From NCBI GenBank assembly GCA_014860565.1, contig JACZJN010000161.1, forward strand, positions 1 through 47,486: 47,486 nt of DNA. The letters are read 5' to 3'. The notes under the pieces were generated by a model, which saw only the letters and a program-made list of their open reading frames with translations, was not told the origin of the DNA and searched no databases. Source of the DNA: Bacteroidota bacterium (lineage in GTDB: Bacteria; Bacteroidota; Ignavibacteria; SZUA-365). The translations under genes were made by a program, and so were the position numbers. Of this stretch, positions 18,750 to 35,294 are shown piece after piece (position 1 is the stretch's first letter; the number at the start of each line of letters is the position of its first letter).

Positions 18750-21700
18750 TTATCGCGAGAGTATCATCTTGCGCACTTCGAATTTGCGCGATGTTTCGAG
18801 ACGGTAGAAATAGAGGCCCGATGGATACTGTTCGCCGGAGAAGCGCACGAAGTGGTTTCCTTTGGCATACTGTCCCTCGGCAAGTACAGTGACTTCGCGA
18901 CCATGTCGATCGAAAACGATGAGGCGTATGTGGTCGTCACGCGGCAGGATAAACTCGATGACGGTCTCGGGATTAAACGGATTCGGCCGGTTCTGGCGCA
19001 GAACGTACTGCTCGGTGGCGACAAGAGGTTCGAGACACTGGTTCGTCGCGATCACGCGTCCGTCACGGGTCGAGAGGAAAATATCACCTCGGTTGAGGAC
19101 GGACATGGCGGAGTCGATGTGGAGCACCGACTCACCATAGCCGGAGATGCCGCTGTTCTCGTTGAACACGCCTTCGACCTGCAGCTTCAGCAGGATTCCT
19201 GCGTCGCGCGCCAGCGGAGATCCCGTGGTATAGTCACTGATTTCGAGATGGCCATTGCCCCAGGGTTTGATCTTTGCTCCGACCCAGCCGATACCCGTTA
19301 ATGTTCCGGCGTTTGATACGCCGAGGACATGCAGCACCGATTCGTCATAATAGAAATGCAGCACATATTCGGAAAGATTCTTCCCGATGGTGCGATCGAT
19401 GTAAATCGGAATGTCCTGTTTTTCGCCATAGCGCAGCAGCGTATAGTCGGGGAAGGAGAGTGTGACATGCTTCGGCGATCCTTCCACGAAGAGGTCGTCT
19501 GTGCAAACTGCATCGTCAGCATTGTCAGCGCGTGCGATGAAGCGGAACTCACGGATCATGTTTTCATTCGACCGCATGGCGCGGAATTTCCAGGTCACCG
19601 TGCCGCTTCCACCGGGCTCAAGAACCGAAGGATCCACGGGTTTGAGCGTTTCCTCGCCCGTGATGAGGGACACGCCGGAGGGTGGAATGAGAAGAGCGGT
19701 GACATTCTGCGCGTTGACCGCGCCAACATTTGTCACCGTAAACGTGAGCGAGCACTCGGTATACTCAAATGTGCCTGTGTCCCAGTCAAAAAAGAGTGAG
19801 TCCTCCGGAAAGGATGAGCATACGGTTTGCAGAATCGGTGTCTGCATTGCTGGGACAAACACTTCGACCTGGCATTCGCGCGACGCGTGGTTGTCGGCCG
19901 TGACGGTTATCACAAAGGGAACATCCGCAGGCAAATCGCGCTTCAGTGCTTTGACCTTCCAGGTGATGCGCACCGATACGCCGGGATCAAGATCGCCTAC
20001 ATGTTGATCCATCGGATCCATCAGCTGCATGAAGGAGCCGAGCACGGAAAGGGAGACGTTGACGTTGGTCGCAGCCCCGAGTCCGACATTTGTGAGATTG
20101 AGTACGACCTCGAAGGGATTGCCGAGATACGATCCGGTCTGACTGTCGAGGAACAGGGTATCGATGGACCAGCATGACGGCATGAGAATCGGGTTTTCCG
20201 TTTTCGGGATAAAGACGTCAGTGCAGCATTGCTCGCTGATGCCGATGGAATCAACTACCTGCGCACAGATTCGATAATCGCCGTCATTCGCACGCATCTC
20301 AGGTGTGAGATTCCATGTCAGATCCACGCTTTCGCCCACACCCAGCGCGGGAATATAGCGCTCCGCGGCCTCGCCATCGGCGAGGGAAACCGAGGGCGGT
20401 GGAATGATGGTCGGTGAAAGTCCACGCCCCGCCGCATTCCCCACGTTTTTGATGTGCAGGGAGAAAGGCAAGGGATCGGGCTGATAGCGATTGTCGACAT
20501 AGGACATCGAATCCGGGGCGCTGCATGTCAACTCGTACTCCGGCCGACGCACGGCGGGAACATAGACGGGCAGGCGACATTCCGCGATCACGATCTGTTT
20601 GCCGAGTCCGCCGCGCCCGAGCACCTGGAAGACAAGGGTGTCCCACGCGGCCTCTGTGCGCGGCAGGGCGCGAATGCTCCATTGCTCCGAACGTTTGTCG
20701 CCGATCTGCATCGTGCCTTCCGGCCGCAGGTTCGTTCCTATCGGTGTGAAGCGCGGTGGGCCCGCAAGCATGATGATGCAATCCTCGGCATACGTTTCAC
20801 CGATATTCGTCGCGACAGTGGTGACGGTAAAGGGATTGGGTTCGTATTCATAGGTCGCGTCGTTGAACACCAGCGAGTCTATCGGCGTCGCGCAGGTCAG
20901 GGTGAACTCGGGCATGCGTACGCGCTGCACCCAGATCGGGTACTGGCACCAGGCAGGATTCGTATCGTCGCCCTGGACGTTGACGCGCACGGTGTCATAT
21001 CCGTCCGTATCGCGAGGATGAATCCGTACCCGGAATGTGTCTGCTGCCGATTCATTGGGCAGCAGCACCGCGGCAAGATCCTGCGAGGCGGGTGGCACAA
21101 TGGTGAATCGCGTATCCTGCAGCAGCTGTGCGCGCACGTCGCGCGTCTGTCCGCTCCCGACATTATGCGCCATCACATGGATGTTGAATTCTTCCGGCTC
21201 GTAATACTGTTCGCGGAAAAAGATTGTGTCGGGTGCGCTCAGATCACACACGATGGCGGAACTCAGGGCCGGATCAACAAGAATGCGTTTCCAGCATGCA
21301 ATGCCCGGGTGGTTGTCAGCCTGCACGGAAAAATAGACTGGTATGGAATCGAGATTTTCCTGTTTTGTCGCCCGAAGCGTCCATTGCGCCGTGCCGATGC
21401 CGCCTGGTGGAATGGTGCGCGGCGTGAGCAGCTGGGAGGTCGTCGTTGGGGTTACAAGATCCACGATGGAAGGATCCGTGACGATCGTCGCGCGTACATT
21501 CCATGCTTCCTTCGTACCGGAATTCATTACCGTGATCGAGACGTTGAAGGGATTCGGTTCGTAGCGCTTTTCCTGATCATTCCATGTCAAAGCATCCGGT
21601 CCGGCGACTTCACAGGTGAGCAGCGGTTCGCGGGGATTGATGATCAGACGGCCATTATGCAGTTGGGGGATAAGACAGTAGGCGTCAAAGGTCCAGTTTA

Positions 21701-22985
21701 TCAATTCGATCGGGGTGTAGGTTCTCTGTGCCACATCGCCCGCGCGGAAATGCAGATAGCACATCACGCCGCCTGTGGTATGGAGTTCCATATTTTCGAG
21801 GACCGTAATTATTGCTCCCGATCCCGGCAATTGGACGCCGATTTTCTTTCCTTCAAGCAAGGTTCCAGCGATCGTGACATTCGTCAGCTGCATGACGTTG
21901 CGGTCATACCCGATGGAGAAAGAGCATTTCCCGAAAATTCCGTTCACCGGAGTCTCCAGAATCACCGGGATGACGATATCCTTTGTCGAGGCAACTTCAC
22001 CGTCATCGATGCGCAGACCGATTGGCTGGAACTGCGAGCGGTCGAGAGGCGCGATATATGTGCGGGTCTGTGTAGCCGATCCGCCGCAGTAATTCTTCAG
22101 CTGCAATTCGACAACGCGTTGCGAACCGTCGGGACAGCCGGTTTCATACTCGATGTAGCATTCCTGGAAGGCTTCCTTCACGGACTGTTTAATGTTCGCG
22201 TAGATCTGTGCCAGATCCTGGCCGGTTCCCGTCCGATAGTACTCACCTCCTGTTGCATTGGCGATATAGCGCAAGGCAGCGTCAGCGTAGGTATCGGCGA
22301 CTTCATACCCGATGGTATAGACTTTTACATCTTGCGCTATCGCGAACTGCGCGACAGCCTGCGCTGTGCGGAGGAACTGACTTTCATTGTCACCGCCATC
22401 GGTAAGCACGACGACGGCACGACACCGGTTGGTTCCAGAATTCGTCAGCTCCTGGACCCCGACACCAATGGCATCCCAGACGGCGGTTCTCCCCAGGGCC
22501 TTCATGGCATTGATGGCGCTGAGCAGCTGTGGTTTGTTGCTGGTCATGCCCACATCGAGGGTTACGTCTTCATTAAAGGAGATGACCGCCGCTTCGTCGC
22601 AGGGTAAGCCGTCGGGATTCATCGAATTTACGAATGCAGCTCCGCCGATCTTCACATTCTCGATCTTGGGTCCGAGCATGCTGCCGGAGCGGTCGAAGAC
22701 GAGCGCGACCGAAACGCAGCAATCCGGTTCCTGCGGACACCAGAGCGTGGCGTTCTTGACGGGGAGTCCGTTTTCGTAGACTTCAAAATGTTGAGGCTGG
22801 AGATCGTTGCGGAAGGTTCCCCCACAGGTGACCTTGAATGCCAGACGTATCTTCGGATACATCACCTCGACGCGTTTGAAGATCAACGTCGGTTGGGCAT
22901 TCGCCGGTTGGAGCAGGGCACAGGCAACGAGGAAAGCAAATACGTAGCGTATCACCATACAGGCCCGGTAGGATTGTGCATTCAA
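18750..22985 (-). CDS. Giant von Willebrand A / repeat / cohesin-like protein with T9SS sorting domain
   Basis: 1411 aa, secreted. Signal peptide at ~10-30 (VFAFLVACALLQPANA). The VWA domain (~90-275) has an intact MIDAS motif, DRSGS at 98-102, plus LTDGGDN, so it should bind a divalent metal and protein ligands. A cohesin-like segment follows (~305-450), then six tandem ~110-residue modules (~455-1165) of the same two-cysteine type as the neighbouring 875-aa protein, a second cohesin-like domain (~1165-1325: IPIYIDRTIGKNLSEYVLHFYY), and a T9SS sorting domain (~1325-1411: NRPNPFNPET, HGREVTVLAEG, ending VRKMILSR). It is first in the minus-strand operon, with the 875-aa gene 4 bp downstream. 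It is likely a cell-surface adhesin or scaffold; ligand unknown. Confidence 0.9.
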   Translation of the reverse strand: MNAQSYRACMVIRYVFAFLVACALLQPANAQPTLIFKRVEVMYPKIRLAFKVTCGGTFRNDLQPQHFEVYENGLPVKNATLWCPQEPDCCVSVALVFDRSGSMLGPKIENVKIGGAAFVNSMNPDGLPCDEAAVISFNEDVTLDVGMTSNKPQLLSAINAMKALGRTAVWDAIGVGVQELTNSGTNRCRAVVVLTDGGDNESQFLRTAQAVAQFAIAQDVKVYTIGYEVADTYADAALRYIANATGGEYYRTGTGQDLAQIYANIKQSVKEAFQECYIEYETGCPDGSQRVVELQLKNYCGGSATQTRTYIAPLDRSQFQPIGLRIDDGEVASTKDIVIPVILETPVNGIFGKCSFSIGYDRNVMQLTNVTIAGTLLEGKKIGVQLPGSGAIITVLENMELHTTGGVMCYLHFRAGDVAQRTYTPIELINWTFDAYCLIPQLHNGRLIINPREPLLTCEVAGPDALTWNDQEKRYEPNPFNVSITVMNSGTKEAWNVRATIVTDPSIVDLVTPTTTSQLLTPRTIPPGGIGTAQWTLRATKQENLDSIPVYFSVQADNHPGIACWKRILVDPALSSAIVCDLSAPDTIFFREQYYEPEEFNIHVMAHNVGSGQTRDVRAQLLQDTRFTIVPPASQDLAAVLLPNESAADTFRVRIHPRDTDGYDTVRVNVQGDDTNPAWCQYPIWVQRVRMPEFTLTCATPIDSLVFNDATYEYEPNPFTVTTVATNIGETYAEDCIIMLAGPPRFTPIGTNLRPEGTMQIGDKRSEQWSIRALPRTEAAWDTLVFQVLGRGGLGKQIVIAECRLPVYVPAVRRPEYELTCSAPDSMSYVDNRYQPDPLPFSLHIKNVGNAAGRGLSPTIIPPPSVSLADGEAAERYIPALGVGESVDLTWNLTPEMRANDGDYRICAQVVDSIGISEQCCTDVFIPKTENPILMPSCWSIDTLFLDSQTGSYLGNPFEVVLNLTNVGLGAATNVNVSLSVLGSFMQLMDPMDQHVGDLDPGVSVRITWKVKALKRDLPADVPFVITVTADNHASRECQVEVFVPAMQTPILQTVCSSFPEDSLFFDWDTGTFEYTECSLTFTVTNVGAVNAQNVTALLIPPSGVSLITGEETLKPVDPSVLEPGGSGTVTWKFRAMRSNENMIREFRFIARADNADDAVCTDDLFVEGSPKHVTLSFPDYTLLRYGEKQDIPIYIDRTIGKNLSEYVLHFYYDESVLHVLGVSNAGTLTGIGWVGAKIKPWGNGHLEISDYTTGSPLARDAGILLKLQVEGVFNENSGISGYGESVLHIDSAMSVLNRGDIFLSTRDGRVIATNQCLEPLVATEQYVLRQNRPNPFNPETVIEFILPRDDHIRLIVFDRHGREVTVLAEGQYAKGNHFVRFSGEQYPSGLYFYRLETSRKFEVRKMILSR

Positions 22986-30442: not shown

Positions 30443-31465
30443 TCACAGGTTGTCGAGCCGAGAGGCCAGGAACAGATCCGCCAGGACCAATGCAGCCATG
30501 CTTTCGATGACGGGAATGACACGTGGGACGATGCAGGGATCATGTCTCCCCTGCCGCGCCAAGTCCCCGGTAGTACTTGTTGGTTTGATGGCGACACGCA
30601 TGACGATTCGCTGACCGCTTGTGATTCCACCCTGAATTCCGTACGAGCGCGTGGTGATGCCTTCGGGAGCATTTGCGACAGCGGTATGGAAAGCCGAGCC
30701 AGCAAGCAGGCATTCGGTGAATGCTTCGCCAAGCGAAACGCCGGCGACAGCGCCGATCGTCATTATGCCGGAAGTAAGGAGTGACTTCGCCTTGTTGAAA
30801 ACCGGTTCACCGAGTCCGGAAGGAACCCCGTCAATGCGCAATTCGATGATACCGCCGACGGAATCACCCTGCTCGCGGAGGCGGAGCAGCTCTTCCGTGA
30901 TCGCAGCATCGGCCATGGAATCAGGACATCGTGTAGGATAAGAGTCCACATTCGCGCGCGTGATTTGGCCAGGGGTTTCTTTCAACGAAACGTGCCCGAT
31001 TTGTCGTGCGAAAGCAACAATTTGCACTGAATCAGGCAGCAGTTGCTCCGCGACCGCGCCACCAATCACGCGCGCGATCGTCTCGCGTCCTGATGAACGT
31101 CCCCCGCCACGGTGGTCCCGGTTGACATATTTGTCCTGCCAGACACGGTCTGCGTGGCCGGCGCGATACACCTGTGGTGAGTAATCCTCGCTGCGTGTAT
31201 CGTGATTGCGAACGATCACCGCAATGGGAGTACCGAGAGTACGTCCTTCGAAAACTCCGCTGAGAATTTCCGGGATGTCCTCCTCCAGCCGAGTGCTCGT
31301 GATGATCGATTGCCCGGGTCTGCGGCGTCGGAGGGCTGCATTGATGTGTTCTTCGGTGAGGGGAACCCCCGCAGGACAGCCATCGATCACTGCACCAAGT
31401 GCTGGTCCGTGACTTTCGCCAAAACTGGTCAAAACGAAGAAATTACCAAAGCTATTACCACGCAT
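30443..31465 (-). CDS. aroC: Chorismate synthase
   Basis: 340 aa. It converts EPSP to chorismate with reduced FMN, the last shared step of aromatic biosynthesis. The three family signatures are visible: GESHGPALGAVIDGCPAG at the N-terminus, the GHADRVWQDKYVNRDHRGGGRSSGRET region (~104-130), and the C-terminal RMAIKPTST-like RVAIKPTSTTGD. Slightly shorter than the ~360-aa norm but complete. It starts 20 bp after the AroK-AroD-AroE fusion gene, giving one aromatic operon. Confidence 0.97.
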   Translation of the reverse strand: MRGNSFGNFFVLTSFGESHGPALGAVIDGCPAGVPLTEEHINAALRRRRPGQSIITSTRLEEDIPEILSGVFEGRTLGTPIAVIVRNHDTRSEDYSPQVYRAGHADRVWQDKYVNRDHRGGGRSSGRETIARVIGGAVAEQLLPDSVQIVAFARQIGHVSLKETPGQITRANVDSYPTRCPDSMADAAITEELLRLREQGDSVGGIIELRIDGVPSGLGEPVFNKAKSLLTSGIMTIGAVAGVSLGEAFTECLLAGSAFHTAVANAPEGITTRSYGIQGGITSGQRIVMRVAIKPTSTTGDLARQGRHDPCIVPRVIPVIESMAALVLADLFLASRLDNL

Positions 31466-31485: not shown

Positions 31486-33306
31486 CTAGAGAAGCGGGTG
31501 GTCAGCGCAGTCGGCCATTCCCCACAGGCGCCGCTGGGCCAGCGCCTGCTGTTTATAAAACGTCATACCGCTGTAGAAACGTTCTGCACGGGGCGGCTGC
31601 GGGGGCAGATTCCGGTAGCGAAGATCCAGCCAGGCAACACATGCCGGAGCATCTGCTTTCTGTGCAGCGTCCTGCCCAGAAGCATCGACAACGAGCTGCA
31701 CTGTTGAGGCGGCATGTTCACCCCATCCATCACGCGCACGCAATACGGAAATGGGTCCCCATCCGCGCGATTCAAGCGCGCGCGTGATCGCGGGAGTTAC
31801 TCCTCCGCTGCCGAATACAAGCGCAGAGCCAGGAGTAACGCCATCGGACTCGATAACTTCAAGTGCCGCTTCCATGCCAGCCTGATCTGTGTCGTACAGA
31901 AGGAAGCTGCCTTTCACCAGAGACAGCGTATTGCCGGAAGTAATAGCAAGCTCCGTTCCAACGAAATTCGAACCGAAAACAGCCGTTTTCAAGGGAGAGG
32001 TCACGGAGAGTCCTTTGAAACCAATCTGTGGAAGCAGGTGCAGGCAATTATCTATCTCGGTCGCTGTCAGAGGAATTTTCATGTATCCGGCCGCTCCTCT
32101 GTCACTTTCCAGAGACAGTGCGCGATGAAAGATATCGCCGAAACTGTGTTCCACGGGCTGACCGATGATGCCGTAGAAGTCACGCGCGTGATCACCCACG
32201 ACGTGCGGGAGGAAATAGTCAAGCGAGGGTGGACGCTGCGAATGTTCGAGACAGCCGGTGGAGATATAGTTCACATCATTTCCGTGGAAAAGTCTCTGCG
32301 CGCGCATCCACTTCCAGTTTTTGCCTTGTGGCAGGAAAGAAATGCGATTCCCCTCCTTTTCGTAGACCTTGTAGAGCTGGTTGGCATAGCGCAGTTCGAC
32401 CCACGACTTGACTCGAGGCGCATATTTGAGCAGAAGCTGCGGGTACCATGACGGGAGGCTTTTTTCTACCCAGGAAGGAAGGCCAATCAGGAAGTCGAAA
32501 AATTCCTTGTACACATCATCGGGGTGGGAACTGAGATAGAGCGGACGCGGATCGAGTCCATGAAGATCCAGACACCGCAGAAAGCCGGTATCGCAATCGA
32601 ACGCTGTCGCGGACGCGGAGCGCTGGAAAAAGGTGGCATCGTCACTACGCAGGGATGCCAGCCATGGCACCGCCGGCTCCGGAGGATCGGGGAAGACATC
32701 GGATCGGATTTCCACCCCGGCCAAGCCGAACAAACGGGCGTCGGCCTCGGCGTGCGGGAGGTCTGCCGCATCACGAGGAACCACCCAGCTTTTTTTCATC
32801 CCGGGGGTGCCGGCTGCGTCGGCCAGCCAGCCGGCGAGGAAGATAAGCCTCCGTGCGGCCTCGTCCTCCCCGCAGTTCCGCTCGATATGGACACAGAGAT
32901 GCGCTGCGCGTCGGTAGCGTTCCTCGCGGGAATCCTTCATCCACGTGATCTCCTCTTCCGGAGACAGGCGAGGACGCAGTCGCGCGCGATCACGGAGCGC
33001 ACTTTCTTCCCAACCTTCGCGGTACAGCCAGATCGTCCGTATGCCAACCGGCCAGGATTCGCAGCCCCCGCCGGTCGCGATGACGGCATCCTGGGAATGG
33101 GTAGCCAACTCATGCAGGACTTCCTGCTCGAGGCGGCGAAATTGCGTTTCGTTTTCCGTGACGAGATCCGTGGCGGAGCGTCCTTCCCTTTCGGCAATCA
33201 ATTCATCGAGGTCGATAAAGCGAATACCGCGTGCCTCGGCCAGACGGCGTCCGAGCACGGACTTCCCGCTGGTTCTGTGGCCGATAAGCAAAAACGAACA
33301 GTTCAT
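31486..33306 (-). CDS. Fused shikimate kinase - AroD-like - shikimate dehydrogenase
   Basis: 606 aa. Residues 1-170 are shikimate kinase: Walker A GHRTSGKS (9-16), the DLDELI shikimate-contact motif (32-37) and ATGGG (77-81). Residues ~185-368 look like a diverged type I 3-dehydroquinate dehydratase: VEIRSD (198-203; family ELRLD), WLASLR (215-220; family VTLR), LSSH261 (family SxH) and LLK294YAPRV (Schiff-base Lys region), then ISFLPQGKNWKWMRAQRLFHG, which aligns with the SMGxxGxxSRxxxxxFG strand-loop. Residues ~372-606 are shikimate dehydrogenase: QPVEHSF (384-389), Lys440 in SVTSPLK, SGNT (457-460), Asp474 in YDTDQAG and the NADP loop GSGGVT. If active, it performs three steps in one chain. 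ATG 33306 is the start. The kinase and dehydrogenase assignments are solid; the middle domain is inference from spaced motifs. Confidence 0.85.
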   Translation of the reverse strand: MNCSFLLIGHRTSGKSVLGRRLAEARGIRFIDLDELIAEREGRSATDLVTENETQFRRLEQEVLHELATHSQDAVIATGGGCESWPVGIRTIWLYREGWEESALRDRARLRPRLSPEEEITWMKDSREERYRRAAHLCVHIERNCGEDEAARRLIFLAGWLADAAGTPGMKKSWVVPRDAADLPHAEADARLFGLAGVEIRSDVFPDPPEPAVPWLASLRSDDATFFQRSASATAFDCDTGFLRCLDLHGLDPRPLYLSSHPDDVYKEFFDFLIGLPSWVEKSLPSWYPQLLLKYAPRVKSWVELRYANQLYKVYEKEGNRISFLPQGKNWKWMRAQRLFHGNDVNYISTGCLEHSQRPPSLDYFLPHVVGDHARDFYGIIGQPVEHSFGDIFHRALSLESDRGAAGYMKIPLTATEIDNCLHLLPQIGFKGLSVTSPLKTAVFGSNFVGTELAITSGNTLSLVKGSFLLYDTDQAGMEAALEVIESDGVTPGSALVFGSGGVTPAITRALESRGWGPISVLRARDGWGEHAASTVQLVVDASGQDAAQKADAPACVAWLDLRYRNLPPQPPRAERFYSGMTFYKQQALAQRRLWGMADCADHPLL

Positions 33307-33479: not shown

Positions 33480-33956
33480 ATGAGTTTACCACGTTTCGAA
33501 AAGGAATGGGATGGTTTCAAGGGACACGTTACGGTACGATGGGACAAAATCCAGGAAGATGATTTGATCAAGATCGAAGGCAACTTCGGAAAGCTGGTCA
33601 GTCTCATCGCCGACCGGTACGGAGAGCAGAAATCCGTCATCGAGGCAAAACTACACGAGCTCTATGCCAATTACCTTGAAACCCGAGAACGACTCGCAGA
33701 GGAGTTTTCCGAACTCCGGGAGAATGTCAACACGCGATCTCACGACATCGCCGAGAATCTCCGCGAGAAGGCTGGGGTCATTCAGGACAAGGCAAAGGAG
33801 CAGATGCAGAAAATTCGCGAGCAGAACATTGACCCCGCGGTGCAGAAGTCCGAGGAGTATATCAAGATCCATCCTTTCTCCGCCGTGCTTGGCGCCTTCG
33901 GTGTCGGGATGTTGATCGGTGGTGTGATCGGTTTGCTTTCGAATCACAAGGATTAG
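33480..33956 (+). CDS. CsbD-like / ElaB (DUF883)-like membrane-anchored stress protein
   Basis: 158 aa. Residues ~8-60 match the CsbD pattern (WDGFKGHVTVRWDKIQEDDL, then IEGNFGKLVSLIADRYG), a small family of stress-induced proteins. A charged helical segment (~65-125) follows, then a C-terminal membrane anchor with glycine spacing (HPFSAVLGAFGVGMLIGGVI), typical of ElaB/YqjD/DUF883 proteins that tether ribosomes or other partners to the inner membrane. ATG 33480 is preceded by an excellent GGAGG. It is divergent from the aromatic operon and converges on the next gene with a 4-bp TTAG overlap. Role inferred from family only. Confidence 0.85.
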   Translation: MSLPRFEKEWDGFKGHVTVRWDKIQEDDLIKIEGNFGKLVSLIADRYGEQKSVIEAKLHELYANYLETRERLAEEFSELRENVNTRSHDIAENLREKAGVIQDKAKEQMQKIREQNIDPAVQKSEEYIKIHPFSAVLGAFGVGMLIGGVIGLLSNHKD

Positions 33957-35104
33957 CAGTTCTGCAGCCGCTGTATTCCTTCGCGGAGTGTTTCATCCGA
34001 TTTTGCGAAACACAGCCGCAGCAGCGATTTCCCTTCGTCACTATTCTGATAGAACACTGATGGAGGTATGACGGCGACGCGCCGCTCGGTCACGAGCCGA
34101 GTGGCGCAGTGAACGTCGTCGTGCACCCCTTCCGGAAGCTTTACCATCATGAAATACGTGCCTTCAGGGAGAATCGCGCGTAGCGTGCTTTCGCGCAGGC
34201 CGTCGTAGAGCAGGTCGCGTTTGCGCTGATACAGCGCGCGGAATTCCGGCAGGTACTGCGTGAGCTGCTCGAGTCCATACGCCATCGCGTGCTGGCCCGG
34301 AGTGTTCACTGCGAACGTCACGAACTGGTGAACGGTGCGCACGGCCTGCGTCAGCGAAGGAACCGCGATCGCGTAACCGATTTTCCAGCCCGTCATTCCG
34401 AAGGTTTTTCCCGTCGAAGAAATCGTGATGGTACGCTCGCGCATCCCGGGGAGCGTCACGAACGGAATATGCTGCCGGTCATCGAAGGTAAGGAATTCGT
34501 AGACCTCATCGCTGATTACCAGCAGATCATGCTTTCGGGCGATTTCAGCGACGATGGCGAGTTCTTCACCTGAAAACATTCGTCCGGTAGGATTATGCGG
34601 ATTGTTCACCACGATCATGCGTGTGTGCGGGCTGATCGCGGAGGCGAGTTCTTCCGCGTCGATCCGGAACTCTGGCGCATGCAGCGTGACGCAGACAGGG
34701 ACCGCGCCGGCGAGAAGGCAGTTCGCGAAGTAGCTGTCGTAGTAGGGTTCGAAAAGAACGACTTCGTCGCCCGGATCCAGAAATGCCATCATCGTCGAGA
34801 ACAGCGACTCGGTCGCGCCCGCCGTAACGGTGACGTCGCTTTCCGCATTCCAGTCAAGGTCATAGAATGTTTTGTGGTATCCGGCCACGGCACGACGCAG
34901 GCGCTGCACTCCCGGCATCGGAGCATACTGGTTTTTTGCGGAGCGCAGGGCGTCGGTGAACGCATCCACGATCCAGGGAGGGCCATCGAAGTCAGGAAAC
35001 CCCTGGCCGAGGTTCACCGCCTGATGTTCGAGGGCCAGCTGGCTCATGGTCGCGAAGATGGATGGTTCGATGGCGTCGAGACGCCGGGCGTGCGTGTGTT
35101 TCAT
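33953..35104 (-). CDS. Class I aminotransferase, KAT/YbdL-like
   Basis: 383 aa, fold-type I PLP enzyme. The N-terminal stretch AVNLGQGFPDFDGPP and the sequence around the Schiff-base lysine SSTGKTFGMTGWKIGY (Lys ~232) are typical of the kynurenine aminotransferase/methionine aminotransferase (YbdL) group. PLP contacts NNPHNPTGR and ISDEVYEFL are present. ATG 35104 starts just before ARRLDAIEPSIFATMSQLA; the longer open frame is not family sequence. It lies 58 bp downstream of the MetS-like gene on the same strand, so it is probably co-expressed with the amino-acid transporter, suggesting transamination of methionine or another imported neutral or aromatic amino acid. Substrate assignment is inference. 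Confidence 0.92.
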   Translation of the reverse strand: MKHTHARRLDAIEPSIFATMSQLALEHQAVNLGQGFPDFDGPPWIVDAFTDALRSAKNQYAPMPGVQRLRRAVAGYHKTFYDLDWNAESDVTVTAGATESLFSTMMAFLDPGDEVVLFEPYYDSYFANCLLAGAVPVCVTLHAPEFRIDAEELASAISPHTRMIVVNNPHNPTGRMFSGEELAIVAEIARKHDLLVISDEVYEFLTFDDRQHIPFVTLPGMRERTITISSTGKTFGMTGWKIGYAIAVPSLTQAVRTVHQFVTFAVNTPGQHAMAYGLEQLTQYLPEFRALYQRKRDLLYDGLRESTLRAILPEGTYFMMVKLPEGVHDDVHCATRLVTERRVAVIPPSVFYQNSDEGKSLLRLCFAKSDETLREGIQRLQNC

Positions 35105-35162
35105 AGGGAGATTGAGGAGTAGCGGGAAGGATACTTCCGTTCGGAAGCAGAATCCCGGGAAT

Positions 35163-35294
35163 TCAGGAATCAGTTGATTTTTCCTGGCGGTTCTTTCGCG
35201 CCTCGCGCCGCATCGCATAGACGAGCAACGAAGCGAACCCGCCCCAGACGAGCGAGAGCACAACCGCCATTGTTATGAAAGCGCTGTCAGTCAT
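35163..35294 (-). CDS. metS: MetS-like small subunit of an NSS transporter
   Basis: A 43-residue membrane microprotein beginning MTDSAFITMAVVLSLVWGGF, with one transmembrane helix and a basic tail (MRREARKNRQEK). The pattern of a short polar start followed by a single helix with VWGG, encoded directly after an NSS-family transporter, is that of the MetS/AlaS small subunits required for methionine or alanine import by MetPS-type systems. Its ATG overlaps the transporter stop by 8 bp (ATGACTGA), implying coupled translation at matched levels. Confidence 0.85.
   Translation of the reverse strand: MTDSAFITMAVVLSLVWGGFASLLVYAMRREARKNRQEKSTDS

Follow-up and report, generated by a model that had tools for sequence, protein, structure and literature searches.

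The window analysed here is a stretch of 47,486 nucleotides from a Bacteroidota bacterium (Ignavibacteria, SZUA-365; GenBank assembly GCA_014860565.1, contig JACZJN010000161.1), which carries on its minus strand an aroK-aroD-aroE fusion gene (positions 31486 to 33306). Together with an AroB-AroA fusion encoded in the same genome, the product of this gene represents a split AROM, in which the five AROM domains are divided between two polypeptides with the AROM order inside each. AROM itself is usually regarded as a eukaryotic arrangement, while the corresponding bacterial activities typically reside on separate proteins (PMC9074039). With a probability of about 0.88, the AroK-AroD-AroE (K-D-E) protein is a trifunctional enzyme which includes a diverged dehydroquinase and is partnered by AroB-AroA (B-A). 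The evidence given below supports a bacterial shikimate system encoded by two fusion genes in AROM order, which is larger than what an earlier note on this DNA had claimed. In the literature searched, no report was found of a K-D-E or B-A fusion from bacteria; an earlier mention in the study of shikimate gene fusions by Richards et al. (2006) is possible.

The earlier note, made from the sequence alone, had described a three-domain fusion upstream of aroC with the kinase, dehydratase and dehydrogenase parts in the same order as the last three domains of AROM. Both statements were borne out. The fusion gene is one uninterrupted open reading frame (ORF) of 606 amino acids, and aroC for chorismate synthase (positions 30443 to 31465, minus strand; Pfam Chorismate_synt, E-value 1.4e-102) follows as the next gene of an apparent operon, its start at 31465 lying 20 bp past the aroKDE stop on the same strand. 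In comparison with PDB entries, fungal AROM was the best match and K-D-E was collinear with it in two stretches. Twelve genomes of one family, each assembled independently and the window genome among them, contain the full-length fusion as a single ORF, with the other full-length proteins being 45-78% identical to that of the window. A 13th copy, from a genome of the same order as this family, is cut by a contig end. Since the fusion recurs in 12 assemblies, one of which is a one-contig genome of 5.2 Mb, it is neither a chance product nor an assembly fault. Three close relatives found in a contig scan are the Bacteroidetes metagenome-assembled genomes SZUA-365, SH-MAG12 and SH-MAG111. A search with the middle domain among 395 genomes across the phylum gave the window genome as sole match, and none was found in plasmids.

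The two outer domains are readily assigned. Residues about 1-165 (positions 32812 to 33306, minus strand) form the shikimate kinase domain, which matches the Pfam model SKI over residues 12-142 with an E-value of 3.7e-20. It carries the Walker A motif GHRTSGKS at residues 9-16, of which G9, G14 and K15 are invariant, as are D34, R57, G79 and G81. In structural comparison with shikimate kinase of Mycobacterium tuberculosis, a VIA Z-score of 20.9 and a root-mean-square deviation (rmsd) of 1.9 over 156 residues were obtained. Hence, this part has the SKI match, the Walker A motif, D34 and R57 of a shikimate kinase. The shikimate dehydrogenase domain (residues about 375-606, positions 31489 to 32184, minus strand) is somewhat shortened and matches the NCBIfam model aroE over residues 377-514 (E-value 1.7e-18). 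Its match to Shikimate_dh_N (E-value 2.6e-5) lies slightly under the Pfam cut-off with the protein alone and over it in the genome search. K440, N459, T473, D474 and Q587 are invariant, and comparison with AroE of Clostridioides difficile gave a VIA Z-score of 25.1. Besides the aroE match, the substrate-binding and Rossmann domains of a shikimate dehydrogenase are therefore present, together with the catalytic Lys and Asp in the form of the invariant K440 and D474.

Between them lies the AroD-like domain (positions 32185 to 32799, minus strand), whose assignment is based on the AlphaFold fold, on invariant residues and on profile-profile alignment with hhalign. The earlier note had correctly recognized the existence of this domain, while its limits, given as residues 185-370, had to be corrected to about 170-374. 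Also the six residues named there as type I dehydroquinase features were numbered correctly, and all are invariant over 13 sequences: E199 (32710-32712), R201 (32704-32706), D203 (32698-32700), R220 (32647-32649), H261 (32524-32526) and K294 (32425-32427), all on the minus strand. R335 (32302-32304, same strand) is likewise invariant, and the set of invariant positions further includes S202, D237, D239, E304, R306, Q327 and G328. The remaining middle domains are 37-82% identical to that of the window. Ratios of nonsynonymous to synonymous substitution rates (dN/dS) of 0.06-0.12, which are rough values because synonymous sites are near saturation, indicate purifying selection, and in two of three such comparisons the middle domain was the most constrained of the three domains. 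Aligned by hhalign with the dehydroquinases of the class, it reached a score of 32.1, with 300 column shuffles all scoring lower (maximum 19.4) and the controls AroK (23.9), AroB (15.1), AroE (14.5) and AroA (14.1) all remaining under this value. Without guidance, this alignment pairs E199/R201/D203, R220, D237/D239, H261, K294 and R335 with dehydroquinase residues.

The predicted structure of the middle domain points in the same direction. Using the family alignment, AlphaFold modelled residues 170-374 as an eight-stranded barrel with a mean predicted local distance difference test value (pLDDT) of 88.8 and a predicted template modelling score (pTM) of 0.87, while the C-terminal loop is of low confidence. 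In this model, E199 and R201 are placed on strand 2, R220 right after strand 3, D237 and D239 on strand 4, H261 just after strand 5 (residues 256-260), K294 in strand 6 (residues 291-295) and R335 in the segment past strand 7, an arrangement which, by the residue roles generally attributed to this family, is that of type I dehydroquinase. H261 and K294 are hence found in the expected register in hhalign, and on or just past the expected strands of the predicted barrel. In a Foldseek search of the model against solved structures, type I dehydroquinases were the best matches, and they occupied ranks 1-32 of the VIA comparison throughout (Z 15.4 to 12.7), AROM and plant enzymes included. Entries 2ysw, 2egz and 2ox1 lead these 32, the Aquifex enzyme came out on top (Z 15.4 over 190 residues at 3.0 Å), and the first barrel of another kind was DAHP synthase with a Z-score of 12.6. 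Type I dehydroquinase is thus the nearest fold, ahead of all other barrel families. As far as the model can tell, the barrel, the putative Schiff-base Lys with its His, and the Glu/Arg/Arg/Arg set of a type I dehydroquinase are all in place. These results support the assignment of the middle domain to the type I dehydroquinases, as a strongly diverged member, and the divergence noted earlier for the middle ~185 residues of the protein is confirmed in that the domain falls under family-model detection while type I features are kept.

Additionally, the gene content of the fusion genomes was considered. In the window genome, neither PF01487 (aroD) nor PF01220 (aroQ) gave a match, in searches that each match 7 of 14 control genomes; a separate complete aroD or aroQ, for which a check had been proposed, was thus not detected there. 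SKI and Shikimate_dh_N each gave a single match in this genome, in both cases within the aroKDE gene. In the search of the class sample, aroD and aroQ were absent from all 13 fusion genomes, while one or both were present in 68 of another 71 genomes searched that have aroK or aroE matches. Such a pattern would follow from a middle domain which takes over the dehydroquinase step, although, because the fusion genomes are related, it counts as one or a few evolutionary events.

Several observations weigh against a functional dehydroquinase in this position. The PF01487 profile check proposed in the earlier note failed, with no match of the middle region at an E-value of 10, and the same holds for all Pfam and NCBIfam models against the middle domain. 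PF01487 gave no match either in the genomes of the fusion's family, which is a criterion of detection and not of biochemistry, and a hidden Markov model profile of the middle domain found nothing significant among PDB sequences. The hhalign probability is no more than 35% on the cleaned alignment, from which a class dehydroquinase row running into AroE had been removed (with that row, an inflated 66.6% is obtained). For E86, S232 and Q236 of the Escherichia coli enzyme, which are accessory and lid residues, no counterparts are identifiable as conserved positions in the family alignment, so that lid closure may differ. As to the missing aroD and aroQ, the window genome is a draft of 223 contigs with 97.8% completeness, and three of the 71 other genomes (G045, G066 and G107, two of them less than 70% complete) also lack both genes. 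Finally, the fused dehydroquinase domain of Candida albicans Aro1 is inactive, having lost both catalytic residues, His and Lys (PMC9074039).

This last case is a precedent for reading the middle domain as the relict of a dehydroquinase barrel, retained only as structural or dimerisation spacer, with an undetected enzyme performing the dehydratase step, as the dead domain of C. albicans Aro1 still dimerises (PMC9074039); the strong divergence of the bacterial domain would fit as well. However, His and Lys are replaced in C. albicans, whereas the bacterial fusions retain the dyad, and Candida species which do so retain dehydroquinase activity (PMC9074039). Since, moreover, all 13 sequences keep the catalytic His/Lys as well as the Glu and Arg residues for substrate binding, no fusion genome has aroD or aroQ elsewhere and two of three comparisons show this domain under stronger constraint than the other two, we regard a mere spacer as very improbable. 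That the domain is a (βα)8 enzyme other than a dehydroquinase would agree with the missing Pfam match and with the Z-scores of 12.2-12.6 reached by DAHP synthase and dihydropteroate synthase. Yet dehydroquinases fill the first 32 ranks, the best of them about 3 Z units over the first other family, the catalytic residues fall into dehydroquinase register unguided, and the domain sits between AroK and AroE beside aroC, which leaves hardly any room for this explanation. We therefore prefer the trifunctional enzyme with a diverged dehydroquinase, and infer that its middle domain is catalytically active.

The second half of the system, an AroB-AroA fusion of 787 amino acids, is located in the window genome on another contig than aroKDE (contig C134:39357-41720, minus strand; L067:8358-10721) and holds the sole 3-dehydroquinate synthase detected in this genome. 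Each of the 13 K-D-E genomes also carries it, with the match in G068 beginning inside AroB. Expected catalytic motifs are invariant, e.g. the His of GHT and HG in AroB as well as KS.LNRA, KES.R and DHR in AroA. Again, the best match among PDB entries is fungal AROM, with residues 75-775 collinear on AROM 89-837. In all neighbourhoods examined, aroC comes directly after aroKDE on the same strand, and the complete order aroKDE-aroC-aroBA is contiguous on one strand in G081, G042 and G108 (L081:1850-7543, L082:2041-7197 and L083:2-4547), where three adjacent genes would thus cover six of seven pathway steps. The two fusion proteins and the aroC product cover pathway steps 2 to 7, with the K-D-E chain representing the uninterrupted steps 3, 4 and 5 from dehydroquinate to shikimate 3-phosphate.

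In the proposed scheme, AroB-AroA would make dehydroquinate (step 2), which would be dehydrated in step 3 by the diverged type I dehydroquinase through a Schiff base on K294, with H261 as general acid/base and the substrate held by E199/R201/R220/R335. Dehydroshikimate would then be reduced by the NADPH-dependent shikimate dehydrogenase, employing K440/D474, and the ATP-dependent shikimate kinase would yield shikimate 3-phosphate as final K-D-E product. AroB-AroA would consume the latter in step 6, and the product of the neighbouring aroC would make chorismate. Channelling or a physical association of the two halves may be envisaged.

Compared with eukaryotic AROM/Aro1 of fungi and apicomplexans, the bacterial system has the same five predicted activities and the same order within B-A and K-D-E, but differs in its bacterial host, its two polypeptides, the compact K-D-E part of 606 amino acids, the strongly diverged AroD and the presence of aroC in the cluster. 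The five domains are not in one polypeptide but in two genes, with aroC between them in the three contiguous clusters. In relation to the AROM order B-A-K-D-E, each half is collinear, while an order between the halves is inapplicable; within the gene cluster, K-D-E leads. The full-length AlphaFold model (pLDDT 88.8, pTM 0.88) has AROM chains as its ten best Foldseek matches (E-values 3e-19 to 7e-16), and its single domains match AROM, whereas their predicted packing, which rests on a shallow alignment, is different (rmsd 17.7 Å over 507 residues). In contrast, the predicted AroD-AroE part superposes on plant DHQ-SDH (Arabidopsis entries 2gpt, 2o7s and 6bmb) over 409-414 residues at 2.9-3.1 Å. 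Unlike the plant enzyme, the bacterial fusion has an additional N-terminal kinase, and its AroD is unseen by PF01487. With type I AroD proteins of PF01487, the middle domain shares the barrel fold, the catalytic His/Lys and the Glu/Arg/Arg set in register, while it differs in escaping the family model and in that the segments linking strand 2 to strand 3 and strand 3 to strand 4 are short.

Other shikimate fusions are known from bacteria or were encountered in the same class. In another family of this class, G098 encodes an AroD-AroE-AroK fusion of 664 amino acids (L062:175-2166, minus strand), which has the same three activities on one bacterial chain but another domain order and an ordinary, recognisable AroD, and is probably an independent fusion. 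AroD-AroE fusions are present in families f13, f14 and f20. The bacterial AroK-AroB fusions (NCBIfam PRK13951 and PRK14021) are likewise fused shikimate enzymes, with different domains and order. ORFs of equal length (about 544-614 amino acids) with both AroK and AroB matches were observed in G014, G034, G003, G010, G024, G044 and relatives, from two other families of the class (f5 and f12); these are probable AroK-AroB fusions.

Most likely, the bacterial fusions arose within the bacterial lineage, independently of eukaryotic AROM; several other fusions in the same class make independent fusion the economical reading. Trees of AroB and AroA were built with sequences from a single bacterial class and from two fungi, of which one is partial for AroA, plus three additional AroB sequences. 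In both, the split genes group together with good support, on very long branches. The AroB tree has AROM beside family f13 (moderate support), while the AroA tree does not resolve its position. A single origin of the bacterial fusions and AROM, be it a common fusion or a transfer in either direction, would be compatible with the trifunctional mechanism. It would account for the equal domain order in both halves and for the first rank of AROM when either polypeptide is compared with the PDB, and the approximately unbiased test did not reject a clade of AROM and the split genes (p 0.43 for AroB and 0.21 for AroA). In the free trees, however, AROM is apart from the split genes, and AROM AroB is 53% identical to AroB of G069 (family f20), while it matches the fused AroB-AroA of this lineage with 30-35%. 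Moreover, the top rank of AROM is partly due to the scores of several domains adding up, the predicted packing resembles the plant AroD-AroE enzyme and not AROM, and there is no joint connecting the two halves. Altogether, a shared origin appears unlikely, and quite unlikely is also the further-reaching proposal that aroKDE-aroC-aroBA is a bacterial cousin or source of AROM, a two-piece intermediate whose proteins form an AROM-like complex.

Some neighbouring observations may be added. Just upstream of aroKDE, with an ORF of the opposite strand in between, the window has a gene for a class I/II aminotransferase (positions 33953-35263, minus strand), which could act on aromatic amino acids. A protein of 1411 amino acids (positions 18750-22985, minus strand) with VWA, CARDB, DUF11 and cohesin-like matches and a Por secretion tail is a probable secreted multi-domain protein. 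No Rfam elements were found in the window. Three genomes of the same order (G075, G095 and G114, family f2) gave no match to AroK, AroD, AroE, AroB and AroA queries and seem to be without a shikimate pathway.

For the lineage carrying the fusion, a diverged fused AroD would explain aromatic amino acid synthesis without an annotated aroD or aroQ; annotation pipelines would call the shikimate pathway of such genomes incomplete. Five domains in two like-ordered fusions represent either a striking convergent assembly or a missing relative of AROM. If convergent, this would argue for a functional reason behind the domain order, and the split system offers a compact natural comparison for whether fusion brings channelling.
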